Origin: Silvibacterium acidisoli
Lineage (GTDB): Bacteria; Acidobacteriota; Terriglobia; Terriglobales; Acidobacteriaceae
NCBI GenBank assembly: GCA_022870745.1
Contig: CP085323.1
Span: 4,898,001 to 4,962,000 of the forward strand
Length of the DNA: 64,000 bases
Direction: 5' to 3'
In this document: positions 7,229 to 32,377 of the stretch, piece after piece
Position numbering within the stretch: position 1 is the stretch's first letter
How the letters are laid out: each line of letters starts with the position of its first letter
The notes under the pieces: generated by a model
Database searches by the model: none
What the model was told of the DNA's origin: nothing
The model's input: only the letters and a program-made list of their open reading frames with translations
Position numbers and translations under genes: made by a program

Positions 7229-7276
7229 ATTTTTCAAAATGACCCGCCGCTCACAGTTTCTCTTCGAGGTTCAGAA

Positions 7277-12586: not shown

Positions 12587-12613
12587 GTAAGAGCCGGTGG
12601 ACCCGGCCACTTG

Positions 12614-15931: not shown

Positions 15932-16388
15932 CGAAGAACCCCCAAAAGTGGTTAGTGGTTACGTATTTTGCTCAGGCGGTTAAAACCGATCTTTGCGTTA
16001 TAGCCAGGCACTCGGCGTCCTTTCATCCGGCCTTTCGTACTCTCGTAGAGGCCTTGAAGAAAGCACCTTTCTGGCGCAACCAATGATTGCTTCGGGAAGC
16101 AACAGATTCAAGGTTACACAAAATCCTAACGTATCTGTATTTCACTGAAAAACAACACCTTAGCATGATCGAAAGCAAGCTAACGGTAGATACGGGCAGG
16201 CGGCGCAGAGCATTTTTTATGCAGGCGAGAAGGGTCGACACCCCCATGCCTTGACAGTCAATTCACGCGGAATATTTAATGGATAGCCGGGACTACAGCG
16301 GCATTGAACAGGGCTGCAAACGAAAAACTAATTCGTTCAGCACATTTCGTATTCGAACCAGGTGCGTAGCAGGAAGGGTAGATCATAG
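15932..16388. promoter_or_regulatory. Divergent control region, receptor/hydrolase unit versus membrane regulator
   Basis: 457 bases without a credible gene. A short palindrome CGGTT-AA-AACCG lies at 15977-15988, about 50 bases before the receptor start. GTTC (16335-16338) and GAAC (16355-16358) near the regulator start form a loose inverted pair. AGGAAGG at 16371-16377 is a Shine-Dalgarno candidate for the TTG at 16389. Promoter elements were not assigned. Confidence 0.3.
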
Positions 16389-17822
16389 TTGAAGCGCGCA
16401 CTCGTCAGTGATCAAACGGTCGAACGGGATATGGAGGCCGCAGCAGTCATCAGGTCTGAGCAAGACCTCGTCACGCTGCGAAGAACTCTGAAAGAAATCG
16501 TCGATGGACCCGCCTTCAGAGGGAGCCATCGCAGCGGCCAGTTCCTCGAATTTGTCGTCGAAACGTGGATCGCCGGTGACTTCGCCCAGCTGAAAGAGCG
16601 CTTGATCGGCGTCCAGCTCTTCAAGCGAAAGCCGTCTTACGATACGGGTGAAGATGCGATCGTAAGAGTAACGGCCTCCGACGTCCGCAAACGCCTGCTG
16701 CAACACTATGGCTGGTTCGGAACCGACGGTGAATTCCGCATTGAGCTTCCCTCTGGCTCCTACGTTCCGCGGATCCATCGAAAGTCTCCGGTCGATGCCA
16801 TTGCGGATAGCCCGCTCGAACCACAGCCGTCACAAGAGATTTTGCTTGCGGATGCGGTCATTCCGGCGCCTGAGCCCCGGGTAGTTTTCCCAGCGCCCGT
16901 CGAAGTTGCCTCCGTGGTAGTAGCTCCTGAGACTTTATCCGTAGTTGTCGCTCCTGCGAAGAAACGGTCCTTATGGCTGACGGCAGTACTTTTGATCATG
17001 GCAGCCGTTTTAGGGTGGTGGATCCATTCCCTGACCCACGCGCCAACTCCCTCGGCTTTTTCAGTGCTTCCGTGGTCAGCTCTTTTCAATGCATCGTCCG
17101 CGACCCATGTGGTGACAAGCGACCCCAATATTGACGCAGTTCAGGGGGTCACCCGTACAGATATAACTCTCTCCGATTACGCGAATCATCGATATGTTCC
17201 AGACCCGGACAAGCTCACACCGGAAGAGGTTCGCATCAGCAAGCTTCTTCTGTCGGGGGAGAGCTCCGCGGCTGCTCCGGACGCTCCGATGACTGCGAAG
17301 ATTGCTGAAATAGCACAAACCTTTTCCAGGAAGCTCGAGGTTCAGGCGTCACGGAACTTTCAGCTGTCCTTTTTGAAAAACAACGATAACTTCATTTTTT
17401 TGGGCAGTCCACGCTCCAACCCATGGTTCTCCCTTTTTCAGGACAAGCTGAATTTCCGATTTGTCTTTGACCGTCAGGTAGGCTCGGAATTCATTCGTAA
17501 CCTCCATGCGCGTCCCCACGAGCAGGAAATCTATGCGCCCAGCGCGAACGGAGGCGGGACTGGCTACTCTTTCGCGATCATCGCCTTCATTCAAAATCCC
17601 GACCAGAACGGCCAGATCCTTCTACTCGCCGGAACGAATGGCGAAGCAACGACGGCAGCAGGCGATTTCGTGACCGACCTTCCACGCATTTCTCATGCCG
17701 TACAGAAATGCGGAATCGTCCCCTCAGGCCCTCCCCGCCATTTCGAGATGTTGCTACGGACACAGACCATGGCAGGAGTTTCGAGAGAGACAGATGTCGT
17801 GACCTGCCATATTCTTCCCTGA
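16389..17822 (+). CDS. Single-TM membrane-tethered regulator with winged-helix-like N-domain (family member 1)
   Basis: A 477-residue protein. Residues about 30-125 form a conserved module (AFRGSHRSGQFLEFVVE, LKERLIGVQLFKRKPSYD, AIVRVTASDVRKRLLQHY, IELPSGSYVP) common at the N-terminus of Acidobacteria signalling proteins and believed to bind DNA in the manner of OmpR/CadC winged helices. A Pro/Val-rich linker precedes one transmembrane helix (LWLTAVLLIMAAVLGWWIHSL, about 194-214). The remaining ~260 residues would be extracytoplasmic, with 'FLGSPRSNPWFSLF' and 'GQILLLAGTNGEATTAAGDF' recalling a sensor fold shared with the paralogues at 24616 and 31007. It diverges from the receptor/GH unit, its likely target. 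Start is TTG 16389 (good Shine-Dalgarno) or ATG 16431. Function is inferred. Confidence 0.75.
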   Translation: MKRALVSDQTVERDMEAAAVIRSEQDLVTLRRTLKEIVDGPAFRGSHRSGQFLEFVVETWIAGDFAQLKERLIGVQLFKRKPSYDTGEDAIVRVTASDVRKRLLQHYGWFGTDGEFRIELPSGSYVPRIHRKSPVDAIADSPLEPQPSQEILLADAVIPAPEPRVVFPAPVEVASVVVAPETLSVVVAPAKKRSLWLTAVLLIMAAVLGWWIHSLTHAPTPSAFSVLPWSALFNASSATHVVTSDPNIDAVQGVTRTDITLSDYANHRYVPDPDKLTPEEVRISKLLLSGESSAAAPDAPMTAKIAEIAQTFSRKLEVQASRNFQLSFLKNNDNFIFLGSPRSNPWFSLFQDKLNFRFVFDRQVGSEFIRNLHARPHEQEIYAPSANGGGTGYSFAIIAFIQNPDQNGQILLLAGTNGEATTAAGDFVTDLPRISHAVQKCGIVPSGPPRHFEMLLRTQTMAGVSRETDVVTCHILP

Positions 17823-17904
17823 ATATGAGAGAACGTTAGACACCCAGCTCCCCTATACCTCTTACTTCAATCGCGGCGGGCACGATGGCCTACACTCAAA
17901 GGAC

Positions 17905-18801
17905 ATGCTCAATCGGGGCTATGCCTACAACACAATCATCGGCAGCAAATACGATGGGCAAACCCTGCTTTCACACCTCTCAAGCCTCTACCCCCACTCG
18001 AGTCCGCAGGAATGGCAACAGATACTGAACAACGGCGAAGTCACTCTCAACGGCATCACCGCCGATGGAAGTGAAGCTGTCATGTCTGGCCAGAGACTTG
18101 TGTGGAACCGGCCACCCTGGATCGAGCCCGAAACACCTCAGTCCTTCGAAGTCCTGCTGGATGATCCTTATCTCTTAGCCGTAAACAAACCCAGCGGGCT
18201 GCCCACCCTCCCCGGCGGCGGCTTCATGGAAAACACCCTTCTGCACCTGGTGCAGAGACATACACCAGACGCAAACCCTGTCCACCGGCTGGGCCGAGGC
18301 ACCTCCGGTATCGTCCTCTTCGCCAGGACTCCGCAGGCAGCTTCAAATTTGACCGCGAACTGGAACACAGCCAAAATTCAAAAGGTCTACCGGGCACTGG
18401 CTCAAAACGTCGCGCGGCAGGATATCTACGAAATTCTTACGCCCATCGGTCTCGTACCTCACCCCCGCCTCGGTTCCGTTTGGGCGGCAAGCCCGGGTGG
18501 CAAACCGTCGAAGTCATTGGCAAAGGTGGTCGCACGCTCTAAGAGCACCACAACATTTGAGGTAACCCTGTATTCCGGCCGCCCACACCAGATCCGAATC
18601 CATCTGGCGTCCATCGGCCATCCACTTGTCGGAGACCCTCTGTATGGCATCGCCGGCCAGCCGCTTGAAGACGACCCCGGTCTCCCTGGCGACGGAGGAT
18701 ATTTCCTGCACGCACAGTTTCTGAACTTTGAGCACCCCATCACCGGAGAACCGATCCGTCTTGAGGCGGCATTGCCGCCTGGATTCTCGTCGCACGAATA
18801 G
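17905..18801 (+). CDS. RluA-family pseudouridine synthase, HRLG variant
   Basis: A 298-residue protein with an S4-like N-terminal segment ('PQEWQQILNNGEVTLNG') and the RluA catalytic fold ('LLAVNKPSGLPTLPGG', 'VHRLGRGTSGIVLFAR', 'GRPHQIRIHLASIGHPLVGD'). RluA enzymes isomerise uridine in rRNA or tRNA. The canonical motif is HRLDxxTSG with a catalytic Asp; here that position is Gly (HRLGRGTSG). A subfamily with HRLGRGTSG is, from memory, also found in plants and other bacteria, so this may be a genuine variant rather than a sequence error. The gene lies between two carbohydrate clusters and converges on the GH127 gene; no functional link is evident. Confidence 0.85.
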   Translation: MLNRGYAYNTIIGSKYDGQTLLSHLSSLYPHSSPQEWQQILNNGEVTLNGITADGSEAVMSGQRLVWNRPPWIEPETPQSFEVLLDDPYLLAVNKPSGLPTLPGGGFMENTLLHLVQRHTPDANPVHRLGRGTSGIVLFARTPQAASNLTANWNTAKIQKVYRALAQNVARQDIYEILTPIGLVPHPRLGSVWAASPGGKPSKSLAKVVARSKSTTTFEVTLYSGRPHQIRIHLASIGHPLVGDPLYGIAGQPLEDDPGLPGDGGYFLHAQFLNFEHPITGEPIRLEAALPPGFSSHE

Positions 18802-18860
18802 CCCTGCGGCAGGGTCGAAGGTATTCTTGCCATCTGCACCATAGGCACACGTTTCCCATC

Positions 18861-20870
18861 TCACTGGCTGTCTTTGAAAGACGGAAAAGACGTCACGCGT
18901 AGCTTTGCCGCGGCATATGGAACCAACGTGATCGTCTCGTCAGGCTCCCCGCTGGAGACCGGGCTCTCAGGCAAAGTTTCAGCGTTGCCATTCACTGCCA
19001 TCCAGGATGGAAGGAGTTTCGCGTCCATGTGCAGACTGACGGGCGCCTGCGCGGCAGTGAAGGGGCGATCGGACAGCGGCGATTCAGATACGGAGATGTC
19101 CTGCGCTTCTTTGGCGCTATCCACTTTGAGCGCGTAGCTCCAACGCGAGCCCGGATAGACCTGCCAATCCGCCGTCATACCGCGATCGCGCAGCTTGAGC
19201 CAGTCCTGGCTGATGTTATAGGAGAAAACCAGCGGGCCTCGCTCCACCGACACTGAATTGTTGAAGCCGGTGAGGATGCGAGGACGCATCGGGAATACGA
19301 GCTCGACTATATCTCCGCGCCGCCATTCGCGCTCGATGCGGGCAAAGCGGCCCGGCGTACCGGCTTCATGCCTGCTGCCATTCACTGTGATCACGGTTCC
19401 GGCGGCCCATCCGGGGATGCGCAACAACAGCGGGAAACGCAGGGGGCGCGACGGATTGATGGCGAGCCTTACTGTGTCGCGAAATGGATAGTCGGTCTCC
19501 TCGACGACGTGTATCTCTGTACCTTGAAGCGAGATGCGTGCCTCGCATGGGCTGTATGCGGCTGCGACCACGCCTCCATCCGCTGACTGCATGAAAAGAG
19601 TTGCCGCGAACTTCGGCCATCCCTGGCTGAAGTTCGCAGTGCAGCAGCCAAAATGCGGTTCGAGTCCATAAAGATTGGATTCCGGACCGTTCGTCATCCA
19701 CGGTTCGCGGTGCAGGCTGCACTCCACCTGGTTAGGTTGCTGGTCGTATTGATGCGCCCACATGTCGTCAGTAAAGGTGCCGGGCAGTGCGTTGAAGGCG
19801 AGCTTCTCCAGGCGGTCTCCCAGCGAGGCTTCGCCAAGTATGGCGAGCGCCTGCTCGAGCGAGTACATATACTCAACAACCGAGCACAGCTCCGAACCCT
19901 GCGAGGGGCTTCGTCCCGCGAGGTGTTCGTCGCAGGAAAACATGCCGTTTGGCAGGCCGTGATAGCGATCGAGCTCGGCGATCATATCCAGTACCGATTG
20001 CCGGTCTGCTTCCGATCCCGTGACGCGCGACCATAACGCGCCGGTCTTTATGGCCTGGCTGTTGTTGACGCCGTGCGTGGCCATGCGAACCTCTTCGAAG
20101 CCGGGCGTGACGGAGAGCGCCGCAATGCGGGCCGCGGTCGTGGGTTCGGTGTAGCGGAAGTGCGCGTACTGCGCCTGCCAGTCGTATCCCTGCGCGCGCA
20201 GCAGATGCGCGAGTGCAAGCAATGAAGGGTCGGGAGCGCGATCGTAGAGCCACAGAACGGTCAACACCTGCTCCTGCCAACGAAACCTGGAGTAGGCTTT
20301 GAGCGGACGCGTAGGCAGCGCGGAAAGTTGGTAGGCGAAGTATCGCTGCATCATTGGCATCACGCGAGCGTCGCCGGTAACCTCCTGATACTGCGCCAGA
20401 GCCTTAAGCATCGGCATGCGTGGCCACCAGTCATCGTTCGACGCCGGACCGAAGGCGCCGGAGGCATGCTGGCTGCGCAGTGCCCATTCCATAAACTTCT
20501 GGGCTTTTGCCTTGAGGCGATCGTCATCGAGCAGGTATGCGAGCGGAACCAGGCCGTCGACAAAATATGGCCCGCGTTCGCCGGATTCGCCCGTGCCTCC
20601 CAGCCATCCGCTGTTTGAGCCCACATCGGGCCAGGTTTCGTCCAGATGTCCGCTGAGGCCATCGGCCTGAATACGAAGCTGATCCTTGAGCCAGCCGCGC
20701 GGCCGAATGCTGCCGAGAGGAAGCAGTGTGAACGTTGCCGGGAATACGGCAACAGAACCGGGCGCGGGAAACGATGCAAAGGCAGAAGGCGCTGCAGAGG
20801 AGGCGGCAGCCGCGCCCAGGCTTTTCAGAAAGCGGCGACGGTTAATATGTGCAGGAAATTGAGAAGACAA
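18861..20870 (-). CDS. GH127/DUF1680-type beta-L-arabinofuranosidase, Tat-exported
   Basis: A 669-residue enzyme. The (alpha/alpha)6 barrel carries the GH127 zinc/thiolate site: 'SELCSVVEY' (Glu and Cys near residue 328) and 'FGCCTANF' (Cys-Cys near 408), spaced like Glu338/Cys340 and Cys417/Cys418 of Bifidobacterium HypBA1, where Cys417 is the nucleophile. A beta-sandwich C-domain follows ('LRIPGWAAGTVITVNG'). The frame is open to 20963, but a GGAG five bases before TTG 20870 gives the compact leader MSSQFPAHINRRRFLKSLG with a twin-arginine motif, so that start is chosen. It lies 103 bases downstream of a TonB receptor in one unit, suggesting use of beta-arabinofuranosides such as hydroxyproline-linked arabinans. 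Related GH146 activity is possible. Confidence 0.88.
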   Translation of the reverse strand: MSSQFPAHINRRRFLKSLGAAAASSAAPSAFASFPAPGSVAVFPATFTLLPLGSIRPRGWLKDQLRIQADGLSGHLDETWPDVGSNSGWLGGTGESGERGPYFVDGLVPLAYLLDDDRLKAKAQKFMEWALRSQHASGAFGPASNDDWWPRMPMLKALAQYQEVTGDARVMPMMQRYFAYQLSALPTRPLKAYSRFRWQEQVLTVLWLYDRAPDPSLLALAHLLRAQGYDWQAQYAHFRYTEPTTAARIAALSVTPGFEEVRMATHGVNNSQAIKTGALWSRVTGSEADRQSVLDMIAELDRYHGLPNGMFSCDEHLAGRSPSQGSELCSVVEYMYSLEQALAILGEASLGDRLEKLAFNALPGTFTDDMWAHQYDQQPNQVECSLHREPWMTNGPESNLYGLEPHFGCCTANFSQGWPKFAATLFMQSADGGVVAAAYSPCEARISLQGTEIHVVEETDYPFRDTVRLAINPSRPLRFPLLLRIPGWAAGTVITVNGSRHEAGTPGRFARIEREWRRGDIVELVFPMRPRILTGFNNSVSVERGPLVFSYNISQDWLKLRDRGMTADWQVYPGSRWSYALKVDSAKEAQDISVSESPLSDRPFTAAQAPVSLHMDAKLLPSWMAVNGNAETLPESPVSSGEPDETITLVPYAAAKLRVTSFPSFKDSQ

Positions 20871-20930
20871 AGGGACTCCAGGAACTTGATATGCAAATGT
20901 CAGGGCGAATACAGGCAGGCGTGGTGCATG

Positions 20931-20956
20931 GCGGAACCGGCATACACCGGTCCCGC
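20931..20956. repeat. Intercistronic hairpin between TonB receptor and GH127 gene
   Basis: GCGGAACCGG (20931-20940) and CCGGTCCCGC (20947-20956) pair at nine of ten positions (the odd one can be G-U) around a six-base loop. It starts 18 bases after the receptor stop on the minus strand, without a T-run, as at the other receptor/hydrolase junctions. Confidence 0.5.
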
Positions 20957-20973
20957 GCTGCATCCATCGTGAG

Positions 20974-23900
20974 TTAGAAATTCACCTTCGCGCCCAGCAG
21001 CATGTTGCGCGCCGCGTAAGTGCTGGTGGACTGGCCAAAGGTCGTATCCTGCAGCTTGACATCGACCGGCATCAGGTTCACGCGATTGAAGAGGTTGAAG
21101 GTGTCGAGACGGAACTCGACATTCACGCGCTCGGTGATCGCCGTGGTCTTCTTCAGGGTCAGGTCGGTGTCGGCGTAGCCCGGATTCAGAAAGCGGTTTG
21201 GCGTCTGGTTGCCCTCGTTGCCGAATTGGGGCAGGGTGAAGTTGCCGCAGGGCAATGCCCCGCCCGCACATACGGGAAAGATTCCATGACCAACCACATA
21301 GTCGCTCCTGCTGTGCTTTTGCGCATAGCTGGTGACGTTGGGGTAGTCAGTGTTATTACCGTCCGCGTTGTAGTCGCCGCTGGTCGGGACATACTGCAGA
21401 TGACCGCCAGCCAGTTCGGAGGCATAATTCGCTGACGTGATCGCCACTCCATCGGTGCCGGTTGCGCTCACCGCGAGCGGGTTCGTGTTCTGGACTGTGA
21501 ACGGTGTGCCGGACTGCAGACTGGTGACCCCGCTTAGAGTCCATCCGCCCGCGACGCGGCGCAGCACGCGATTCGAGAGCGTTTCGCCGGGAAGATCATA
21601 CGCCCACCCAAGAGAAAACGCATTCGGCACGTTGTACTGCGAGGGCGAGTAGTACTGGTTGTAGGGCGGGGCCGCCGTGGGATAGCTTCCCCAGTCGTCC
21701 ATCGCCTTGGAGTGTGTATAGGAAGCGGTGATAAATCCGCGTCGTGCGAAGCGTCCCTTGATCGCCGCGATCAACGCGTTGTAATTGCCCGTCGGCCCGT
21801 TCGTTGCGTAGGAGATGGCGGCAAAGCTGGTGTTGAGGCGATCCTGAACTCCTGTGCCGCTGTACTTGCCGGATGCCGCGAAGCTGGGATGCTGCAGCAG
21901 ATCTCCTGCGTACGCGTTCACATCATTGCCGTAGGTATGCGCGGCGAGATTGCCGCCGTTTGTGATGAGGTTGCCGGAATGCGAACCCTGGTAGCCAATG
22001 CTCGCGACCAGGCTGCGGGTGAGCGAGTGCTCCAGGGTCAGCGTGTAATTCAGCACGTGCGGCATGCTCAGGTTGGGATCGATGCCGATAGTGGTAAAGC
22101 CGCCACCCACGCGGCCCCCCTTGGCGTCCAAAGGCTCGCCTGTGAAGTTGGGATAGGTGAAGCCGAAGGGATAAGTATTCGAGGTACCGAAGGAATAGAT
22201 CGGCGCAGGCGTCGAACCGTCATTCTTGAAGGTCGGACGCACTGGTCCCGGCGGGTTGGCGATCAGTCCATTCTCCTGGTTGCCCAGCGTGAACTCATCG
22301 CGATACACGCCAAAACCACCGCGCACCACCCACTCCCCTTTGCCGAAGAGGTCATAGGCGAAGCCTGCACGTGGGCTGAATATCCAGTTCAGGTCGTGCG
22401 CGAAGGTATGACTCTGCTGCGTGAATACGCCGTTGGCGATACTCTCGGCGAAGGTGGAAGCGGCAGCGGGATGGAAGTTGGCCAGCACCGTCTGCCCCAG
22501 CGCGGGATAAGCGTTGCCGAAGTTGTCATAGCGGATTCCGTAATTAATGGTGAGTCTGCGCGTCAGCTTCCAGTTATCCTCGGCAAACGCACCGCCCGAG
22601 CCCTTCGCGAATCCGTAGTTATCCGCAACCGGTTGCCCGGTCACCGGATTGAAGGCGATATTCGTTTCCGTGTAAGGATTGTCATTAATCAGGTTGATGA
22701 TGTTGGTGTAGGTGAAGATCGGCTGGCTGTACCTTCCCGCAAAGTAAGCGAGATCGTCGCCGTGCCACCCTTCGTAGCCAATCTTGTATTCATGATTGCC
22801 GCGGATGTAGGTGGCCACGTCCCGCCAGTGGTAGCCATGCTGGATGTAATCTTCGTACGGATTCGCATCGCCCCAGCCGACACCCAGCCCAGTCACGTTC
22901 GTCACCGGAACGTAGAACAAACCTTTATTCGGCGTGTAGCCTTCGATCCGGTTGTAGCCGAAGAAGGCTTCATTCAGCAGCTGCGTCGAGAAGGTATGAG
23001 TCTCGTTTCCCTGCAGCGAGAAGGTGTAGAGGTTGCTCGACGTGGTGAACTGCGGACGAGGGCTCGGCGCCTGGTTGACGATCGTGTTCCGGAAGAAGAT
23101 GCCGTAGATGCGGTCCCTGTCGAATACCTTATCGACACGTCCGCTGTATTGATACGAGGTGTTCGGCGCTGAAGCGTTGAAGATGCCCTGGTCATAGACC
23201 GGCATCGAGCATGGGATGTTGTCGGTGCTCGGCGTTCCGCAGCCCGTATTCGCCGCCGTATTCTGCGCGCCGAAAACCTGCTGCGCCGTCTTCGAGGATT
23301 GAAAAACCACACTCTTCACCGGATACTTGCTGAAAAGCGAGGTCTCGAGCGTATTCGGCATTACCTGCTGCGCGAAGGCTGCAAACGCAGGATCTTCATA
23401 CGTCAGGCTGCCGCTATTGGGCGCGAGAGCACCGACCGCGGTCAGCGCCGCATTTGGAGTCGAGGAGAAGTACGGCTGCAGGGTCGCGAAGAAGAAAAAC
23501 CGCCTGTTCGGAATGATCGGTCCACCGACGCCAAAAGAGAGAGCCGTCGTATGGAACGGAGAAACCCGCTGCCCTGCCGGGACCCCATACTCTCCGCGCG
23601 CGCTCAGATCCTGGTCTGCGTAGTAACCGCTGGCAAAGCCGTGATACTCGGTCGTGCCCGGCCGCGAGGACATTACCGTTTCAATCGAACTCGACTTGCC
23701 ATAGTCCACGTTGTAGACGTTGGTCTGTACGGTTACTTCTGACAGGGCATCGACGTTCGGAGTCAGGTTGGTCACGCCCTCACCGATGTCGCTGTCCACA
23801 TCGAGGCCATCGACGATGAAGGTGTTCGCATTGCCTCCCTTGCCACCCGAGCTGTAATGGTTCGTCGTCTCCGGATTGAAGGTCGTGGTCGCCGCCTGGA

Positions 23901-24429
23901 TACCGGTGACGCCCGGGGCCAGCCCGACCAGAGACATGGGATTCCGGGTCGCCAACGGCAGATTCTGGAGCGAAGACTGATTGAGCGTCAGCGATTCGCG
24001 ACTGTCCGCTGTATCGAGCAGGGGCGCTTGTGCCGTGACCACAAGGTTGGTCGTGCTGCTGCCCACGCTGAGCGTCAACGACACGTCCCGGACTTCGCCG
24101 GAGGTAAGTGTGAACTGCGCCTGGGTACGCTGAAAGCCATTGGCCGATGCGGAGATTTCATAGTCTCCCGGCCCAAGATTGGGGAAGCGGTAAACGCCCG
24201 AAGCATCGCTGGTGCCGCTTTGCTGCACCTTCGTCGCAATATTCAGCAAGATCATCTGAACGTTCGGGATATTGGCTCCCGCTGCATCCCGGACGCTTCC
24301 CTGCACGCCGGCGGTAAATTGCGCAAACGCGGTAGAACCCGCCGCGAAGATGCACAGGATGAGAAGAGCAAGACCCCGGCTAAGAACGAGGAACTTCAGG
24401 CTATTTCGATTTCGTACAGGATTTGCCAC
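20974..24429 (-). CDS. TonB-dependent receptor, Oar-like (GH127 locus)
   Basis: An 1151-residue outer-membrane receptor of the same type as the one at 12614. Signal peptide (LVLSRGLALLILCIFAAGSTAFA), CarboxypepD_reg domain ('GVQGSVRDAAGANIPNVQMI', 'YRFPNLGPGDYEISASANGF'), plug ('LQNLPLATRNPMSLVGLAPG', 'GGKGGNANTFIVDGLDVDSD') and a long beta-barrel ending 'MLLGAKVNF'. The frame is open to 24516, but AAGGAG lies six bases before GTG 24429, so that is taken as the start. It heads the receptor-GH127 unit and diverges from the membrane regulator at 24616. The ligand is probably an arabinose-containing glycan, inferred from GH127. Confidence 0.87.
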   Translation of the reverse strand: MANPVRNRNSLKFLVLSRGLALLILCIFAAGSTAFAQFTAGVQGSVRDAAGANIPNVQMILLNIATKVQQSGTSDASGVYRFPNLGPGDYEISASANGFQRTQAQFTLTSGEVRDVSLTLSVGSSTTNLVVTAQAPLLDTADSRESLTLNQSSLQNLPLATRNPMSLVGLAPGVTGIQAATTTFNPETTNHYSSGGKGGNANTFIVDGLDVDSDIGEGVTNLTPNVDALSEVTVQTNVYNVDYGKSSSIETVMSSRPGTTEYHGFASGYYADQDLSARGEYGVPAGQRVSPFHTTALSFGVGGPIIPNRRFFFFATLQPYFSSTPNAALTAVGALAPNSGSLTYEDPAFAAFAQQVMPNTLETSLFSKYPVKSVVFQSSKTAQQVFGAQNTAANTGCGTPSTDNIPCSMPVYDQGIFNASAPNTSYQYSGRVDKVFDRDRIYGIFFRNTIVNQAPSPRPQFTTSSNLYTFSLQGNETHTFSTQLLNEAFFGYNRIEGYTPNKGLFYVPVTNVTGLGVGWGDANPYEDYIQHGYHWRDVATYIRGNHEYKIGYEGWHGDDLAYFAGRYSQPIFTYTNIINLINDNPYTETNIAFNPVTGQPVADNYGFAKGSGGAFAEDNWKLTRRLTINYGIRYDNFGNAYPALGQTVLANFHPAAASTFAESIANGVFTQQSHTFAHDLNWIFSPRAGFAYDLFGKGEWVVRGGFGVYRDEFTLGNQENGLIANPPGPVRPTFKNDGSTPAPIYSFGTSNTYPFGFTYPNFTGEPLDAKGGRVGGGFTTIGIDPNLSMPHVLNYTLTLEHSLTRSLVASIGYQGSHSGNLITNGGNLAAHTYGNDVNAYAGDLLQHPSFAASGKYSGTGVQDRLNTSFAAISYATNGPTGNYNALIAAIKGRFARRGFITASYTHSKAMDDWGSYPTAAPPYNQYYSPSQYNVPNAFSLGWAYDLPGETLSNRVLRRVAGGWTLSGVTSLQSGTPFTVQNTNPLAVSATGTDGVAITSANYASELAGGHLQYVPTSGDYNADGNNTDYPNVTSYAQKHSRSDYVVGHGIFPVCAGGALPCGNFTLPQFGNEGNQTPNRFLNPGYADTDLTLKKTTAITERVNVEFRLDTFNLFNRVNLMPVDVKLQDTTFGQSTSTYAARNMLLGAKVNF

Positions 24430-24615
24430 CACTGGCTCCTTAAAAATTCCGGATGATGCAGAAGTAGCAGGGAGCCGGACGACACTCACAGACAATTCAC
24501 TGGTGCTTGACCGCATCAGCTGCGAATCACTTTGTTATGAGCCATTTACCTGGGCTTCATGTGTCATGATGCAGGCTGCTCCGAGCATCCAGATTGACAT
24601 GCGGTTCATGAGTGC
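24430..24615. promoter_or_regulatory. Divergent control region, TonB receptor versus membrane regulator
   Basis: 186 bases with no gene, carrying both divergent promoters. ATGAG/TCATG-like words recur (TCATGATG near 24567, TTCATGAG near 24605), but no clean operator palindrome was found. Confidence 0.3.
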
Positions 24616-26010
24616 ATGGTTAAATGTGCAACGACAGTGAGCAAATTGTTCGTTGACACCGCTACAGATCGCGGCACACCCGACGCGCGCTTCCGAAGAC
24701 CAGTTGCGTCAAGCACCGCCGAGTCGGAACCAGCACGGCGTGAACTGGTGCGTCGCATCGTCGAATCTCCAACATTTGCCCGCAGCGAGCGACTAAGCAC
24801 ACTGCTTACCTACATCTGCGACCTCGCACTGAAGGGCCGCGAATCCGAAATCAACGAGCAGCGTATCGGTCACGAGGTTTTTGAAAGGCCGGCGGGCTAC
24901 GACTCTTCGGCCGATGGAATTGTGCGCAGCCAGGCAAGCCGCTTACGGCAGCGTCTTGACCTCTATTTTCAGCATGAGGGTGCAGACGAGCCGGTCCGAA
25001 TCGTGATTCCTCGCGGGGGATATGTACCCGTGTTCGAGACGCAGGCAGCGGCATCGTCAGAACCGCCTGCGGTTCTGCTGCTGGATGCCGTGACTCCGGC
25101 AGCTCCGGTTCACACGCCAGTGAGTGCGGGCTCCGCGAGCTCGCTCCGCCGGTGGTTTGCTCCGGCGCTGTGCGTTGTGCTGGCCCTGCTGCTGGCTACG
25201 TTGTGGATCTACGATCGCCATCCTTCCATTTCGGCGGCAACTCCTGCGTCGCACCATTTCTGGAGCCTCCTCTTCCGCAACAGTCAGCCGACCCTGGTCG
25301 TAGCGCCTGACTCCGGATTGGTGCTCTACCACGGCGCTTCCGGGCAGGACGTAAATCTCAGCGCCTATCTGGACGGCGGATACCGTGCGGGACCTGATGG
25401 CGCCAACCGGATCGGCCCGGCGGTTCCACAGAAAGAATGGCTCCTGAACCTGGCGAATCGCCGGTACACCTCGATCGTCGATCTGGAAATGATCCTTCAT
25501 CTCAAGGATCGGGCGCGGTCCCTGGGAAGCGATATTACGGTGCGCTATGCACGTGACCTGCGACCCGACGATTTCAAAGCAGGAGACGTAATCCTTCTCG
25601 GTTCCCGCGAAGCAGATCCATGGGATGAGCTCTTTCATCCCGGCATAAACTTCATTCTCGAAGACGACTACATGGGCGATTTTTCCGTCCGTAATCGTAA
25701 CCCGCGCCCCGGCGAGCCCTCGCGGTGGGACTCCAAATCGGACGATCCGCAGCACCGAGTCTATGGCCTTGTAGCCTTTCTGCCGAACCTGGGCGGGAAT
25801 GGCAACGCCTTGCTGCTCGAAGGCACAGGCATGTCCGGAACGCAGGCTGCAATGGACTTCGTCTCGGATGACACACTCCTGCTTCCCTTCATCCAGAAAA
25901 TCCGCCTTTCCGATGGCACGCTGCCCCATTTCGAACTGCTCCTCGAAACCCACAACATGGGCGCTAGCGCAGTTCGCAGCCAGATTCTCGCCTGGCGAAC
26001 GATGAAGTAA
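24616..26010 (+). CDS. Single-TM membrane-tethered regulator (family member 2)
   Basis: A 464-residue protein. The N-terminal module (about 38-145) reads 'RRELVRRIVESPTFARSERL', 'LLTYICDLAL', 'EQRIGHEVFERPAGYD', 'DGIVRSQASRLRQRLDLYFQ', 'IVIPRGGYVPVF', the SRLRxRL form of the predicted DNA-binding domain. One TM helix follows (WFAPALCVVLALLLATLWIYD, about 180-200). The extracytoplasmic part includes 'PTLVVAPDSGLVLYHGASGQ', 'VILLGSREADPWDELF', 'GNALLLEGTGMSGTQAAMDF' and ends 'SQILAWRTMK', nearly the same end as the paralogue at 31007. It diverges from the receptor/GH127 unit. Signal recognition outside and DNA binding inside is inference from architecture. Confidence 0.75.
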   Translation: MVKCATTVSKLFVDTATDRGTPDARFRRPVASSTAESEPARRELVRRIVESPTFARSERLSTLLTYICDLALKGRESEINEQRIGHEVFERPAGYDSSADGIVRSQASRLRQRLDLYFQHEGADEPVRIVIPRGGYVPVFETQAAASSEPPAVLLLDAVTPAAPVHTPVSAGSASSLRRWFAPALCVVLALLLATLWIYDRHPSISAATPASHHFWSLLFRNSQPTLVVAPDSGLVLYHGASGQDVNLSAYLDGGYRAGPDGANRIGPAVPQKEWLLNLANRRYTSIVDLEMILHLKDRARSLGSDITVRYARDLRPDDFKAGDVILLGSREADPWDELFHPGINFILEDDYMGDFSVRNRNPRPGEPSRWDSKSDDPQHRVYGLVAFLPNLGGNGNALLLEGTGMSGTQAAMDFVSDDTLLLPFIQKIRLSDGTLPHFELLLETHNMGASAVRSQILAWRTMK

Positions 26011-26073
26011 ATGACGCCACCGGCAGGACGCCATTGAAACTGAGCTGGATCTGTTCCCTGCCCCATTCCAAAA

Positions 26074-26116
26074 CAGCTTGAGCACCACGGCCTGACTGGC
26101 CATGGTGCTCAAGCTG
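26074..26116. terminator. Bidirectional hairpin terminator
   Basis: Perfect 14-base arms CAGCTTGAGCACCA (26074-26087) and TGGTGCTCAAGCTG (26103-26116) with an inner GGCC/GGCC pairing in the loop. It lies between convergent genes ending at 26010 and 26146. Stem strength and position indicate a shared terminator. Confidence 0.75.
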
Positions 26117-26145
26117 GTACTTACGAGGCTGCTACTTCGCTGGGT

Positions 26146-29100
26146 TTAGTTTTTGGCCGGAGCCGCCTGAGTGGTATTTGGCGCAGGAATGAAGCAGGCC
26201 TTTACAACCCCTACATCGGGATCGTTGCCAAATGCCGTGGTTGTGCAAGCTACTCCGTTCGTGAACGTCTGGTAAAGGTATTGCCCATTTGCGCCGAAGG
26301 CGACGGTCGCGGTTCCGGTAAAGGAACACTGACTGTTCTCCGCGGCGCAGAAGGTGTATCCGCTCGGGACTGTTGTTCCAGGCGGGGCTGCCTGCGTGGT
26401 GTTCGGTGTTGGAATGTAGCACGACTTGACCACGCCGTAGACCGGATCGTTGCCAAACGTTGCAGCCGTGCAAGACGTTCCGTTGGTGAAATTTCCGTAC
26501 AGGTATCGTCCGTCAGCGCCGAAAGCAACGGTTGCAGTTCCGCTGAACGAACATTGGTTGTTCTCCGAAGCACACAACGTATACCCGCTCGGAGGAGCTG
26601 AGCCCGTCGGAGGAGCTGAGGTATTGTGGGGTTGCGACACCAGCCAGTTCTGCGTTGCTGTTCCCATCGCAGGATAGAGCCACATCTGCAGGCCCGGTAT
26701 GGTCTCGGCGTCATAGTCGTCGATAACCATCGTGGTGCCGCCATTGGCGGCTGTCGCCGCCTGGTTCTGGATGATGACAGAACCGTCCGCCTGCGGAATC
26801 AATTCCCAGTTCTGTGTCGTCTGTCCATTACAGTCATGCTGCCATAACATCGTGCTGGTGCCTGCCGATTGAGGAAGTGTGCGCGAGGGTATGCCATTGC
26901 CATACGGATCATCAAGACAGAGACCACTCTGCGCGCTGACTATCGTGTAGTAACCGTTGCCTTGCGAGTGCAGGGTCCAATTCTGCGCTGTTGATCCATC
27001 ACTTGCCCATTGGATGACGGCAACATTGTCAGTGGCTGAGCCGGAACAGCCATCGCAGTCGTTGTCGAGGTACATCTGGCTCGACTCGTTCTGGAAGACG
27101 TAGCTCTGGCCATCGCTGATGAGCGGCAGATAACAGGCTTTTACGACCCCGACATCAGGATCGTTCCCAAAAGCCGTGTCCGTACATGCGACCCCGTTGG
27201 TGAAGGTCTGATAAATGAACCGTCCATTCACTCCGAACGCGACGATCGAGGTCCCCGTAAACGAACAAGTACTGTTCTCAGGGGCGCACAGTGTATATCC
27301 CTCCGGTGCGGCGCCACCCGTTGGAGTAGACGTAGTAACGTTGCTGCCCGCTTCCATATATGAGGTGTTCCGCTTACCAAGCGAGGCTGCGTATGTGCTT
27401 ACGCCAATCGGATTATCCGTGGTAATCATCTGTACCCCTTCATTCCCTATCAGGTACGAAGGGTCAGGTCGATTGTCGGCATGGTCCCACGGAAGATTAG
27501 GATTGACCGGCGTCGAGCCGTCGATTGAGTTGAACAGATCCTGTTCCAGTTCGTGGCAGCAGGTTCCATCGGTATTGAAAAATTGAGCCGGAGTGTTAGC
27601 CGGATTGTTGCCCGGGAAATAATCGCCGACCGGGTTGAAGTTTGAAATGGTTACTTGCTGCCCTGTGGCCTGATTGAACTTCGAAGTCTGAAGCACTGAG
27701 GTCAGAATGGACCCGTTCGCAATTCCGAGGTAGTCCTTCATCGTCACTTCAATTGCCGAGATATTGATATTGGGATTCGACTCAAAGTTCGTGATCCACT
27801 GGTTCATCTGGGCTTCGGTCGTAAAGACTCCGTTGTCTCGCGCGCCGGATGGATCGACCCAGTTCGTGTGAAAGACGGGATTGAAATTGACCTCCGAATA
27901 GGTGTCTCCAAAGGCTGCGATGTAGTCGGCAGTGGTAGGAAATAGAAACGCCGGCATCTTGAAGATCGTAGATTTGGCGAAGGAGCGGCCCTGAGCATCT
28001 TTACTCTCCTGCACAATGGGCCATGCTGCTTTCGCGAAATCCAACCCTTGAACATCCAGTTCAACAACCATCTCGATGTTGTTCTTGCGGATGTAGTCGT
28101 AAACGTCCTGTAGCGTGGGAGCATATACACCCAGCCAGTTGTTTAATCCCCAGCAACCATGGTTCTTGATCGTGCTGAGGAGGCTCACGCTGTCACGCAA
28201 CACCGTATTGCCCAGGAACGATCTTGTATCGGAGAGAGCGGTATTTGCGACAAGCGGATTCCTCGCGTCCGTGGCCGGATCGTTGAACGGATCGAATGGC
28301 GCGCCAGAAAAGTTAAAGTTCCCTAAACCGCACCACTCTCTACCCCAGTTCTTATCGTGCGTGAGAATCGGCACGCCATCGCTGGTCAGCTTCACGTCGA
28401 TCTCGATCGCTTCCCATCCCGCCTGGGCGGCAAGTCCGATCGCCTGCAGAGAGTTTTCCGGAACATTCGGTGCCTGGTCTGTCCCTGCCAGCGCGTGTAC
28501 GCCTCGATGCGCAGCCACAGTGACGAGATCCGGGTGAGGATTGCGGATTGCAGCCATGATGTTCGTGGTATCCCAGTTGTTAGGATTCGGGTCGGCAATC
28601 GCGGTGAGCGGTACCGTGGAACCCGAAGTCAGACCGGTGGTAAAGACAGTCGATGCAGGGCAACTCGCGGAGCCCTGATAGGAAGCCACCGGCACCTCCT
28701 GCGATACGTTGGCAGAGTTTGCCGCCCCACCAATTCCATCTACAACATTGCTGATCTGTCCGCTTCCGGTTAAGAACACGGTGCCGACATCGCTGACCTG
28801 CACTCCGCTGTAAGCCGGTACCGTCATGGCGTTGTCGACGACAATATTCACACCCTGGTTAAAAAAGGAGTACATGCCGAGCCCGCTCGCCTTATGGGTG
28901 CAGACCGAATCAGGAGACACAGCGTAGGAGGGATAGCCGTTCGACGTGCCGTTCATCCACGATGCCTGGTTCGGCACATCGTACGGAAACTCGCTCTGAT
29001 AAAAGATCGTCTGGCCGTTATCGCCATTCCACTGCGTTTGGGTTTGTTGAAAGTGCTCGACAGCGAGCCCGAGAGCCGTCACGTTCTTACCATTCACGAC

Positions 29101-30531
29101 CACGCCATGGTTTGCCGTATTGACGGTCCAACCGTAGGTACCGGCATTGCCATGGTCCGCGCGCCAGGCCCAGATGTTGTCGAGAATTACGTCCCCGCTA
29201 TCGATCTGCAATGCGGTATCAACGGAGCCGGCGGTACTGCCTCCGATGCGGAAGAATACATCGTTTAGCGAAGTGGGGTTGTCGGAGTGCCCCTGGTTAA
29301 TCGTTCCTGGATGGCCTATTTCGACAAGCATCGGTGAAGTGCTGGGTCCTGCGTCGAACAACAATCCAGCGATCTGCACGCCGTCAACGTCGTCGACGGC
29401 CAGCGCTGGTTCGCCTGCCTGGGGAACAAGCGTCGCATATCCCAGACCGAGCACGATGGTGTTCGGGTTTCCTACATAGATGGGCACGCTGTACTGGTAA
29501 ATTCCCGGCGTGAGGATGAGATTCTGCCCGGCGGCCAGAGCTGCATTGATGTCATCGACGGAAGTCGAAGGTGTTGCGATGAAGAAATCGCTGATCGGGA
29601 GTGAATGACCGTTCAGGGTTTCGACTCCGTTCCAGTCGGTTCCAACGGTGTTCCTTTGAACATCCGATACCTGAACGTTGTAGTTTCCCTGGCTGTCGAC
29701 GTACAGAAACGGCTTCTCCCGCCGCACCGGCGTCGTGGGAAGGAGCGTGACGTTAGCGTCTCCGGATGGGCCGCCCGGGTAGGACTGCTGCGGTTCCATT
29801 CCGGATACCCCGGAAAACACGAAGTTCCAGACATAGCCAGTGAATCCGCCCAGCAGGCTTGTGTTGCGCGTATACCACTGCTGCTGTGAACAGGCATTCA
29901 CCAGCTGCTGTATCGAGGAGTCGGCGGTGAAACCGCCGCTCGATTCCTGGCAGGCATTCAAAGTACCGATCGGCTGCGAGTTTGCGTACCAGACTCCGCC
30001 TCCGATATCCATTCTTCGGAGCGAAGCCCCCTGGGATACTCCCCAGTCAATCACGCCGTTCGTGGGACCGCCCGACGGAACGATATGCAGGTTTTCCTGC
30101 GACCGCCAGAAGTTCTGGGTCATGTTTCCGTCGATCAGCGCATCCACATTGAAGCCGCCCGTAATGTTGACTGAGTCAGGCGATATGCCGAGACCGGCGA
30201 TCTGCTCATAAAATCCTACCTGCGAGACCACGGGACTACCCGTCGAACCGTAGGTTCCCGGCTTAAACAGGATCGCGTAACGATTGGTGCTGAACTGCGC
30301 CTCCTGGTTGAGTTCGCTCATCAGGCTATTGATAGCGGCTGGCGACATCGACGGGTCGATCACATAGACGGAAGGACCAAATATCGAAGTGTTCGGCCCG
30401 TTCGGTGCCGGCTGTGTACCTTGTGCCTGCGCTACGGACAACGACAGGAACGGAAGATGCAGGCAGCCTGCAAGAGTGCAGAAAATGGATAAGGTCAGGG
30501 ATCTGATGCGATATTTCAGACGAGACATCAT
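26146..30531 (-). CDS. Secreted multidomain protein: beta-helix, GDPD-like, ricin B lectin and three Cys repeats
   Basis: A 1461-residue exported protein (signal peptide about 1-37). Residues about 50-640 match the right-handed beta-helix family often labelled 'adenylyl cyclase' or 'coagulation factor 5/8' in databases ('YVIDPSMSPAAINSLMSELN', 'YAILFKPGTY', 'VREKPFLYVDSQG', 'ILTPGIYQYS'). Residues about 668-1075 are a glycerophosphodiester phosphodiesterase-like domain: AHRG, PENSLQAI, EAIEIDVKLTSDGVPILTHD, giving both catalytic His and the metal-binding Glu/Asp. Residues about 1142-1290 show ricin-type QxW repeats (AQNWTL, TQNWEL, TQNWLV). Three ~60-residue repeats with 'GYT.CA.EN..C.F.GT' lie at about 1077, 1313 and 1389. 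Start ATG 30531 or 30528 after GGAG. Substrate is unknown; a glycan-bound phosphodiester is one guess. Confidence 0.8.
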   Translation of the reverse strand: MMSRLKYRIRSLTLSIFCTLAGCLHLPFLSLSVAQAQGTQPAPNGPNTSIFGPSVYVIDPSMSPAAINSLMSELNQEAQFSTNRYAILFKPGTYGSTGSPVVSQVGFYEQIAGLGISPDSVNITGGFNVDALIDGNMTQNFWRSQENLHIVPSGGPTNGVIDWGVSQGASLRRMDIGGGVWYANSQPIGTLNACQESSGGFTADSSIQQLVNACSQQQWYTRNTSLLGGFTGYVWNFVFSGVSGMEPQQSYPGGPSGDANVTLLPTTPVRREKPFLYVDSQGNYNVQVSDVQRNTVGTDWNGVETLNGHSLPISDFFIATPSTSVDDINAALAAGQNLILTPGIYQYSVPIYVGNPNTIVLGLGYATLVPQAGEPALAVDDVDGVQIAGLLFDAGPSTSPMLVEIGHPGTINQGHSDNPTSLNDVFFRIGGSTAGSVDTALQIDSGDVILDNIWAWRADHGNAGTYGWTVNTANHGVVVNGKNVTALGLAVEHFQQTQTQWNGDNGQTIFYQSEFPYDVPNQASWMNGTSNGYPSYAVSPDSVCTHKASGLGMYSFFNQGVNIVVDNAMTVPAYSGVQVSDVGTVFLTGSGQISNVVDGIGGAANSANVSQEVPVASYQGSASCPASTVFTTGLTSGSTVPLTAIADPNPNNWDTTNIMAAIRNPHPDLVTVAAHRGVHALAGTDQAPNVPENSLQAIGLAAQAGWEAIEIDVKLTSDGVPILTHDKNWGREWCGLGNFNFSGAPFDPFNDPATDARNPLVANTALSDTRSFLGNTVLRDSVSLLSTIKNHGCWGLNNWLGVYAPTLQDVYDYIRKNNIEMVVELDVQGLDFAKAAWPIVQESKDAQGRSFAKSTIFKMPAFLFPTTADYIAAFGDTYSEVNFNPVFHTNWVDPSGARDNGVFTTEAQMNQWITNFESNPNINISAIEVTMKDYLGIANGSILTSVLQTSKFNQATGQQVTISNFNPVGDYFPGNNPANTPAQFFNTDGTCCHELEQDLFNSIDGSTPVNPNLPWDHADNRPDPSYLIGNEGVQMITTDNPIGVSTYAASLGKRNTSYMEAGSNVTTSTPTGGAAPEGYTLCAPENSTCSFTGTSIVAFGVNGRFIYQTFTNGVACTDTAFGNDPDVGVVKACYLPLISDGQSYVFQNESSQMYLDNDCDGCSGSATDNVAVIQWASDGSTAQNWTLHSQGNGYYTIVSAQSGLCLDDPYGNGIPSRTLPQSAGTSTMLWQHDCNGQTTQNWELIPQADGSVIIQNQAATAANGGTTMVIDDYDAETIPGLQMWLYPAMGTATQNWLVSQPHNTSAPPTGSAPPSGYTLCASENNQCSFSGTATVAFGADGRYLYGNFTNGTSCTAATFGNDPVYGVVKSCYIPTPNTTQAAPPGTTVPSGYTFCAAENSQCSFTGTATVAFGANGQYLYQTFTNGVACTTTAFGNDPDVGVVKACFIPAPNTTQAAPAKN

Positions 30532-31006
30532 TCACTCCATTCAGAAATCAAAGTTCGAGGTTCGTAGAGCGGCGCGTTGAAGGTGTTTCTCCGAGGAACC
30601 AATGCAAATCGTGAAATTGGCACAGCGCTGGAAGGCCATTCGTACACATGTGCCGAGGACGGAATCCGAGCCCCCTGGAGCATCCATGAATCGGGGTCTA
30701 GTGGGTCACGCGATCGAGCTGAGAGAGTAAGTAACAGTGCGAGCGGCACCTACCAACACATTTCACCGATTCAGGGTTGAACCATTCAATGTATGAACGA
30801 CTTACACGGCGTTCATGAATCCTGATACTGGCCAGCAACGAAGGGCATATGTGAAGTTTCCGGAGCAGATCGCATCCGCGGAAGTCCGATTCTGCCTGCG
30901 CGCCGGCCTTCTCCGGGCTCGATAGCCGTGGATGAAGTCCATGGATTTTTTTTGTGGAGGGAGCAGGAGTAAACCGCAGCGTCAGGGGATGAAGGCGGCA
31001 AGACTG
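30532..31006. promoter_or_regulatory. Upstream region of the beta-helix/GDPD gene with a candidate operator
   Basis: 475 bases without a supportable gene. ATGAACG (30793-30799) and CGTTCAT (30810-30816) form perfect seven-base arms with a ten-base spacer, about 262 bases before the start of the beta-helix/GDPD gene. This could be the site of an adjacent membrane-tethered regulator. No promoter was assigned. Confidence 0.35.
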
Positions 31007-32377
31007 CTATTTCATGGTGCGCCACGCGACAACATGGCTTTGTACGGAGCTCGAATCCATATTGCGTGTTTCAATCAGCAGCTCGAAGTGAGGAATCGTG
31101 TGATCCGGCCGTCGAATTTTTTCGAGGAAGGGCGATAACTGCGTGTCGTCGTTCAGAAAATCCAGCGCAGCTTCCGTCCCCGACATACCCGCTCCTTCAA
31201 GTAATAGCGCGTCGCCGTTCTCCTCGAGACTCGGCACATACGCGATAATGCCGAATGCATGCCGCTGGCTGTCACTCCTGGTCGAAACCCATTCAGCCGG
31301 TTCTCCCTTTCGCGGAGCGCGATTGATAACTTTGAAATCGCCAACGACATCGTCCTTGAGCAGGAAGTTGAGGTTCGGTTGGAAAAGCTCGACCCATGGA
31401 TTCGCTGTGTTCGATCCAAGCAATACGACCGTGCCCCGCTTCAGGTCGTTCGGCCGCAGATCGCGAGCATAACGCACGGACACATCGCTCCCAAGTGCTT
31501 TTGCCCTGTCGCGGATACTCAGAATTGCGTCGAGATCGACCATCGATGTGTAGCGGCGGTTCGCGAAGTCGATCGCCAGCGTGGATTTCTTTGCTGCCAC
31601 TCCAGCCGGAACCAGATCGTTCGCCTTTGAACGGTATCCACCATCGATATATTCGTTCAGGTGAAGCTCCTGGGATGACAGGATTCGATACAGGATCAAT
31701 CCGGAATCGGGCGCTACGATCATCGCAGGTTGCTTCGGGGAGAAAAGCTGACCCCAAAAAGGATGCGTGAGGCTGGACACCTGGGGCTGTGCTTTCTCCA
31801 GCCCGTGCATCCACAGACCGAGCAGCATGCAAGCCAGCACGGCACTGATAGCCCACGGAAGCCATCGCGCCAACCTGCCGCTTTGCCTGCCGTGCCCATC
31901 ACCCGACCGTCGAGCCGGGTACACCGTCTGCTGTGCGGGTGCGGCGTCGGCAGACAAGACGGGCTCCGTCTCTTTCTGCGACGCAAACACGGGAGCATAC
32001 CCGCCTCGTGGGATCGTGAGCTGCACCGGCTCATCGACGCCTTCCTGCTGAAAATACAAATCCAGGCGTTGCCGCAGACGGCTTACCTGGCTCCGTACGA
32101 TACCATCCACCGCAGAATCGTAGCCTTCGGCCCGTCCAAAAACATCGGCGCCTATCTTCTGCTCGGCAAGCTCTCCTTCACGACCTGCGATCGCCATATC
32201 GCATATATAGGTCAGCAGTGTTCCCAGGCGTTCGCTTTTCGCAAAGGTTGGAGAGTTTACGATACGCCGGACCAGTTCCCGCCGCGAGGCTTCCGACTCC
32301 AGAGGCGGAAGACGCGTGGGACTCTGAGCCCGTTTCGCAAAGGGCTCACGCTGAGAGCTCGTGTTGGATACAGGCAT
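31007..32377 (-). CDS. Single-TM membrane-tethered regulator (family member 3)
   Basis: A 456-residue close paralogue of the protein at 24616. The N-module has 'RRELVRRIVNSPTFAKSERL', 'EQKIGADVFGRAEGYD', 'DGIVRSQVSRLRQRLDLYFQ' and 'LTIPRGGYAPVF'. A single TM helix (WLPWAISAVLACMLLGLWMHG) lies at about 171-193. The outer domain keeps 'PAMIVAPDSGLILYRILSSQ', 'GTVVLLGSNTANPWVELF', 'GDALLLEGAGMSGTEAALDF' and ends 'SHVVAWRTMK'. It is transcribed toward and lies 475 bases upstream of the beta-helix/GDPD gene, which also faces member 2 on its other side. It probably controls that gene; co-transcription with it is possible but the gap is long. Confidence 0.75.
   Translation of the reverse strand: MPVSNTSSQREPFAKRAQSPTRLPPLESEASRRELVRRIVNSPTFAKSERLGTLLTYICDMAIAGREGELAEQKIGADVFGRAEGYDSAVDGIVRSQVSRLRQRLDLYFQQEGVDEPVQLTIPRGGYAPVFASQKETEPVLSADAAPAQQTVYPARRSGDGHGRQSGRLARWLPWAISAVLACMLLGLWMHGLEKAQPQVSSLTHPFWGQLFSPKQPAMIVAPDSGLILYRILSSQELHLNEYIDGGYRSKANDLVPAGVAAKKSTLAIDFANRRYTSMVDLDAILSIRDRAKALGSDVSVRYARDLRPNDLKRGTVVLLGSNTANPWVELFQPNLNFLLKDDVVGDFKVINRAPRKGEPAEWVSTRSDSQRHAFGIIAYVPSLEENGDALLLEGAGMSGTEAALDFLNDDTQLSPFLEKIRRPDHTIPHFELLIETRNMDSSSVQSHVVAWRTMK

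Follow-up and report, generated by a model that had tools for sequence, protein, structure and literature searches.

How acidobacteria choose which of their TonB-type receptors to express is a question for which we found no account in the open literature, and it is raised by a 64,000-nucleotide stretch of the Silvibacterium acidisoli genome (contig CP085323.1, positions 4,898,001 to 4,962,000, forward strand; hereafter the window, whose numbering is used below unless a genome position is given). A preliminary description of the window, made from its letters alone, had singled out four genes, at 16389, 24616, 31007 and 63395, whose products share an N-terminal segment (the N-module), one transmembrane (TM) helix and an outer domain, and had proposed that they regulate the TonB receptor and hydrolase units beside them. 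We conclude, with a probability of about 80%, that these genes belong to a family of single-pass, membrane-held one-component transcription regulators of adjacent receptor operons, of the ToxR/CadC-like kind, for which we infer DNA binding, a ligand and the direction of control.

Open reading frames are confirmed at 16389, 24616 and 31007, and that of 63395 starts at about 63390 and passes the window end. The four genes are listed here with lengths in amino acid residues (aa), and are sorted into two types by a single residue of the putative recognition helix (R, Q, L and the like in type I; D or E in type II).

16389-17822, + strand: type II regulator, 477 aa, TTG start, helix VTASDVRKRL; N-module aa 27-134, TM aa 194-212, BcsB-like outer domain aa 225-476
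24616-26010, + strand: type I regulator, 464 aa, putative recognition helix SQASRLRQRL; N-module aa 37-146, TM aa 180-198, outer domain aa 209-463
31007-32377, - strand: type I regulator, 456 aa, putative recognition helix SQVSRLRQRL; N-module aa 28-137, TM aa 172-190, outer domain aa 203-455
63395-64000, + strand: type II regulator, helix VTASDVRRRL; the window end cuts the gene, which is 451 aa when complete in the genome

The homology of the four is firm, as a search with 24616 finds 31007 at E 2.4e-156, 16389 at E 1.1e-40 and 63395 at E 1.2e-32, and the sequence motifs originally quoted for the N-module and the outer domain are all present. The family is larger than the four members first described: an N-module profile finds 22 in the genome (5.36 Mb, one contig; acidobacterial, not Bacteroidota), the weakest at 97.9 bits and with nothing else at E ≤ 1. 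A single TM helix is predicted, from hydropathy only, in 21 of the 22, which upholds that claim for the family at large and leaves out 63395, which falls below the threshold. The C-terminal parts comprise 18 BcsB-like outer domains, two PD40 beta-propellers and two that are other or short, and no outer domain lacking an N-module occurs among the frames of at least 300 aa in 19 stretches examined. The three complete window members have no kinase or receiver match in Pfam.

The neighbours of the window members are the following, where GH denotes a glycoside hydrolase family.

12614-15931, - strand: TonB-type receptor gene (CarboxypepD_reg and OMP_b-brl_4 domains), divergent from 16389
9719-12610, - strand: GH35 gene, directly 3' of the receptor gene 12614-15931
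7315-9513, - strand: GH92 gene, 3' of the GH35 gene in the 16389 unit
5372-7237, - strand: GH2 gene of the 16389 unit
20974-24516, - strand: TonB-type receptor gene, divergent from 24616; its likely true start, read from the sequence, is 24429 or 24432 (in-frame GTG after AAGGAG)
18861-20963, - strand: GH127 gene, directly 3' of the receptor gene 20974-24516
26146-30531, - strand: gene for a large secreted protein with GDPD and ricin-B-lectin domains, the presumed target of 31007

The reported divergence of 16389 and 24616 from receptor/hydrolase units is thus confirmed. The same setting does not extend to 31007, which has no adjoining receptor and lies upstream of, and codirectional with, the GDPD/ricin-lectin gene, and 63395 is followed on its own strand in the genome by a GH3 gene and then a receptor gene.

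The association with receptors extends well beyond the window, with counts that cover one complete genome and 37 contig stretches. Receptor genes were recognized by CarboxypepD_reg (PF13620) at 48.9 bits or more in frames of at least 800 aa, and the ends of genes were estimated from these hits. Scoring covered 150 of 161 candidates and gave 138 matches, of which 108 were kept, such that the genome has at least 108 receptor-type genes. Not kept were matches in frames short of that length, single weaker ones in three longer frames (858, 949 and 1605 aa), and the many tandem copies of the domain in a frame of 2762 aa (G000:C1:875764-881274). For 17 of the 22 family members a TonB-type receptor gene is at most 600 bp away, where rotations of the genome lead one to expect 2.6 and none of 2000 is as high (binomial 2.9e-12), compared with three of 21 control genes with a Trans_reg_C domain. 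A previous receptor list based on PF25183 (65 of 117 candidates scored, with the receptor 20974-24516 added by hand) had given 12 of 22 members and one of 21 Trans_reg_C genes at this distance, and was replaced because it is incomplete. Within 2 kb there are 19 members, 13 divergent and six codirectional with the regulator upstream, so all 19 are on the receptor's 5' side and none on its 3' side (sign test 3.8e-6); the three outside this set are 63395, 31007 and a member at genome position 5182236, whose nearest receptor is 3.3 kb off. On other Acidobacteriota contigs, 21 of 42 N-module genes are within 700 bp of a receptor-type gene as identified by a home-made receptor profile (18 divergent, one codirectional upstream, two codirectional downstream), and for nine of the 42 there is no receptor-type gene in the stretch, some of these being at contig ends. 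The expectation that these genes adjoin receptors more often than chance is thereby borne out.

A single TM helix together with receptor adjacency is also FecR-like, and the 63395 fragment has a weak NCBIfam 'antisigma' match over its linker and TM (21.7 bits, against a cut-off of 100). The proteins would then be anti-sigma sensors, with the N-module holding an extracytoplasmic function (ECF) sigma factor that is freed when the receptor is loaded. Only one of the 22 members is within 3 kb of any of the 29 Sigma70_r2 matches, no window member has a FecR match in Pfam, and the promoters carry family-specific words tied to the type of recognition helix, as described below; we regard this explanation as highly improbable. 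The one-component architecture initially proposed agrees with the single predicted TM helix, the absence of kinase and receiver matches in the three complete window members, and the scarcity of sigma-factor genes nearby.

Whether the N-module could bind DNA is addressed by its predicted fold and by profile comparison. An AlphaFold2 model (mean pLDDT 92.4) predicts helices at residues 2-16, 24-39, 47-55 and 68-87 followed by a hairpin, and seven of the 15 invariant residues fall in the long helix and the hairpin (I68, V69, R70, R77, R79, G100 and Y102). A profile of 86 N-modules aligns over 67 columns with 21 OmpR-type (Trans_reg_C) domains of the same genome at E 8.9e-4, a value for one profile comparison, with the helix on the recognition helix and the hairpin on the wing, which is the expected register; the local score is 23.8, against a maximum of 17.3 in 40 column shuffles. 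Trans_reg_C itself (PF00486) has no match in the three complete window proteins or in 36 N-modules, and no sequence in the Protein Data Bank (PDB) matches the N-module profile below E 1. A match to BrxR at E 0.04, from a profile of four full-length proteins, was not counted. CadC binds DNA through a winged helix in which alpha3 is the recognition helix and a hairpin forms the wing (PMC5430869; this and the other papers given by PMC number are cited from excerpts). In the N-module model a helix takes the place of strands beta1-beta4 of CadC, and because the N-terminal strands are absent the N-module would be at most a divergent relative.

An N-module that serves as a non-DNA-binding signalling module, with the proteins acting through another regulator or on receptor assembly, would account for the missing Pfam helix-turn-helix (HTH) and significant Foldseek matches, and for the N-module that precedes a cyclase-AAA protein in Caulobacter. 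It fits poorly with the register-correct alignment to OmpR-type winged helices, with motif types that follow recognition-helix types, and with the finding that within 2 kb the regulators of the source genome are only at receptor 5' ends, and we consider it quite unlikely. From the deep profile alignment, the domain fusions and the promoter motifs that track recognition-helix type, all of them indirect, we infer that the N-module binds DNA.

The promoter motifs were sought with an unsupervised search, with six shuffled sets per width, upstream of 79 of 89 distinct N-module sequences (left out were the plasmid loci, except L107, plus L047 and L062), of which 36 are type I and 43 type II. The search recovered a motif resembling CCGTGAATT from type I regions and one resembling ACCGTTAGGAAC from type II regions, each above all six shuffled sets. 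In the 13 divergent intergenic regions of the source genome there are 11 sites for A[AT]TTCAC (1.5 expected), and in 18 promoters of other genomes also 11 (1.9 expected; 0 of 300 shuffles), although six of these 18 (L025-L030) are not independent because they are from close homologues of 24616. Ten patterns were tried in this replication test: ATTTCAC alone replicates weakly (3 sites against 0.9 expected; 19 of 300 shuffles), and ATCCGG, the top word in the 13 own promoters, does not replicate in other genomes (4 sites against 3.8 expected) and was discarded. Upstream regions with GTGAA[AT]T number 19 of 36 for type I, nine of 43 for type II, and five of 40 for receptors that have no family neighbour (40 of 89 such regions were used as controls); CGTTAGG is present in 13 of 43 type II regions, none of the 36 type I regions and none of the 40 controls. 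The type II Fisher values are post hoc, because the words were chosen after seeing the sequences.

The window contains the following candidate sites.

24465-24500, - strand: candidate type I operator and promoter element GTGAATT-N23-CTGCTA
16126-16187, - strand: candidate type II operator ACCGTTA-N49-CGTTAG
begins at 16109, + strand: inverted partner of the type II operator (CAAGGTTAC)
30611-30617, no strand assigned: type I word GTGAAAT, between 31007 and the GDPD/lectin gene
30760-30766, no strand assigned: another type I word, ATTTCAC (inverted), between the same two genes

All six homologous intergenic regions share an unchanged GTGAATT, and in five of them CTGCTA follows. An initial type I composite with too narrow a spacing matched two of 36 regions, and the respaced form, GTGAAWT-N20-24-CTGCTA, has two occurrences genome-wide, at 24465-24500 and beside a member at genome position 5077574, both next to type I members. 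ACCGTTA-N43-51-CGTTAG likewise has two, at 16126-16187 beside 16389 and between 63395 and the GH3 gene, and in each the two CGTTA words start 54 bp apart; 16389 and 63395 are the only two of the 22 members with a VTASDV helix. Reversed patterns give five matches for the type II composite and none for type I. These composite searches test specificity and not discovery, because both patterns were built from sites already seen. Among seven codirectional gaps (including that of 31007 and excluding that of 63395), four have a type I word before the target. The 63395 and 31007 gaps, inspected after the words had been defined, each have a word of the matching type upstream of the target and none upstream of the regulator. 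The two candidate operator types, GTGAATT for type I and ACCGTTA-N49-CGTTAG for type II, track the type of recognition helix.

The words could instead be sites for RNA polymerase or another global regulator, with the family merely nearby, as CTGCTA, 22-23 bp 3' of GTGAATT, resembles a -10 element, and many members lack the words. Since upstream regions of receptors without a family neighbour have GTGAA[AT]T in only five of 40 cases and CGTTAGG in none, and since two motif classes follow two helix classes, this is in our judgement unlikely, if less so than the two alternatives above.

Under regulation by the family itself, the cytoplasmic N-module would bind DNA by its helix (D.IVR......R.RL) and hairpin wing (I.LP.GSYVP), and the outer domain would sense a ligand, either one taken in by the adjacent TonB receptor or one that the hydrolases of the unit release. 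Ligand binding would change the pairing or posture of the N-modules, and these would then probably activate the receptor promoter, whether divergent or downstream. Activation is a guess drawn from some promoters, in which a -10-like element follows the type I site and the site is near the position of a class II activator: it is 22-23 bp upstream of the -10-like CTGCTA in the 24616 promoter and in one other in the genome. The simplest reading is of one such regulator per nutrient locus.

Several observations weigh against regulation of this kind. First, no Pfam family matches any of 36 N-modules better than E 0.05 and none of the matches is to an HTH family, and Foldseek finds no PDB match for the N-module model at E ≤ 0.001, with winged helices reaching a template-modelling (TM) score of only 0.36-0.40. 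The 86-module comparison has a probability of only 23% and its global form is marginal (13.0, against 12.6 in shuffles), and the shallower profile of 36 N-modules is not significant against Trans_reg_C (13.1, against up to 18.8 in 60 shuffles). Secondly, no more than 19 of the 36 upstream regions of type I, and 13 of the 43 of type II, have the key word, the orientation of the type I word is mixed (14 to 9), and three of the seven codirectional gaps have no word of their own type. Thirdly, one of the 19 close members, at genome position 3381643, is separated from its receptor by another gene; in other genomes the regulator is downstream in two of the 21 close cases, and four further N-module genes there are convergent at 1.2-4.5 kb. 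Fourthly, within the genome there is no correlation between the distances among regulators and those among receptors (r 0.06 for 16 of the 19 close pairs; 1699 of 5000 permutations), so that pairs may be reshuffled, or regulators may answer to ligands and not to receptor lineage; over 33 pairs there is a correlation (r 0.48, 0 of 5000 permutations), probably driven by orthologues. Finally, only five of 14 genes directly following a receptor have a glycoside-hydrolase-type match, and many receptor partners are not glycan-related.

The overall interpretation of the preliminary description is accordingly supported in part. Its CadC/OmpR resemblance survives in the deep profile, which aligns in the expected register, and in the confidently predicted helices and hairpin, and finds no backing from Pfam or from Foldseek. 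The mixture of partners suggests nutrient loci more generally and not only polysaccharide loci. A codirectional gene directly follows the receptor in 14 of the 19 close cases; the five hydrolase-type matches are GH35, GH127, GH92, GH31 and a GDE_C/MGH1-like protein, two others are phosphodiesterases, there is one each of PepSY_TM, tyrosine phosphatase, prenyltransferase-fold and fn3 proteins, and three have no domain match.

The outer domain, modelled at pLDDT 88.3, has its best Foldseek matches in the PDB to chains of BcsB, the first at E 9e-4 with probability 0.99, which is the sole match at E ≤ 0.001 (TM score 0.34, rmsd 9.4, 13% identity). The matching part is the periplasmic region of this cellulose synthase subunit, and there is no sign of a cellulose synthase role for the BcsB-like outer domain. 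Weaker matches are to GH115 and GH67 glucuronidases and to an archaeal S-layer anchoring domain. A Pfam search of 35 outer domains, of the sort originally proposed, agrees with the Foldseek result, giving weak matches to S_layer_C in seven (best E 0.029) and to BcsB in three (best E 0.15), none of the latter being clear. These matches hint at an envelope or carbohydrate role.

Membrane-bound one-component regulators are known as a broad kind, and the N-module family would be a new variant that lacks a Pfam DNA-binding match. ToxR/CadC-type regulators share with it an N-terminal cytoplasmic DNA-binding-like module, one TM helix, a C-terminal outer sensor and no phosphotransfer; unlike CadC, the family has no Trans_reg_C match, and unlike both ToxR and CadC, 18 of its 22 members have a BcsB-like outer domain. 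A comparable case is ChiS of Vibrio, a one-component regulator that is anchored in the membrane and controls genes for the uptake and breakdown of chitin; it is likely activated by a chitin-bound periplasmic protein (PMC11856585). CAZyme (carbohydrate-active enzyme) genes are commonly controlled by hybrid two-component systems, sigma/anti-sigma systems and catabolite repression, the first two of which resemble the family in that a sensor in the membrane governs TonB receptor or CAZyme genes (PMC10766802). The family differs from hybrid two-component systems in the lack of kinase or receiver matches in the three complete window members, and from sigma/anti-sigma systems in that 21 of 22 members have no sigma-factor gene within 3 kb. 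SusR of Bacteroides may be a further precedent.

A 2023 survey of transmembrane transcription regulators found Acidobacteriae somewhat richer in these than most, and located DNA-binding domains by Pfam models (PMC10269533), an approach that would miss the N-module family. The excerpts of PMC3174227 and PMC13384398 contain nothing on this family, and we found no paper on it in the open full-text literature, which is weak evidence as most subscription journals are outside that scope. We lean, by a small measure, towards a broader view in which the N-module is a family of DNA-binding domains that Pfam lacks, with members in Acidobacteriota, Alphaproteobacteria, Gemmatimonadota and at least one gammaproteobacterium. 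Combined with a BcsB-like periplasmic sensor, it would in Acidobacteriota constitute an unrecognized form of regulation of nutrient loci with TonB receptors, in addition to hybrid two-component and sigma/anti-sigma systems, and the recognition helix would set two operator codes. If so, a family overlooked by a Pfam-based census fronts about one sixth of the receptors (19 of 108 within 2 kb), with one regulator per receptor operon, such that food outside is sensed and the matching uptake genes are turned on; the regulators would then help to predict which receptor unit answers to which sensor, and the window offers candidate operator sites open to direct test.

The family is patchily distributed. 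Six of 40 genomes sampled across the phylum have members (E ≤ 1e-15), 22 in the source genome and one to three in the other five; two of eight congeners have strong matches to 24616 (nine and six), and the other six have none at the strict limit. One peptide-pattern scan of public genomes gave 38 relatives, which we take to be all acidobacterial. The N-module is also found on 275 plasmid records, mostly rhizobial. A Pfam scan of nine N-module proteins shows fusions to TPR regions, with or without weak FlgO/TolB_N matches, and to a beta-propeller (in Gemmatirosa and in two proteins of the source genome).

Some further observations concern individual loci. Directly upstream of 31007, at 32534-34644 on the same strand and 156 bp away, are a 489-aa frame and a NarL/FixJ-like response-regulator frame (214 aa), named by reading the sequence, and this two-component pair may be linked to 31007. 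Upstream of 63395, at 59926-63144, is the gene for a 1072-aa protein with a phosphoesterase match. Two N-module genes are in direct tandem in Acidobacteriaceae TAA 166 (L036:7920-10756), a stretch with no detected receptor. A 426-aa member from Catenovulum, a gammaproteobacterium isolated from algae (L106:3974-5254), has no Pfam match and is divergent from a DUF1553 gene, with a GH43 gene nearby. On a Caulobacter rhizosphaerae plasmid (L105:3450-6845) the N-module is followed by guanylate-cyclase and AAA_16 domains, with xylanase and GH43 genes nearby, and on pSymA of Sinorhizobium meliloti 1021 (L103:1772-4243) two tandem N-modules precede a TPR region within one protein.

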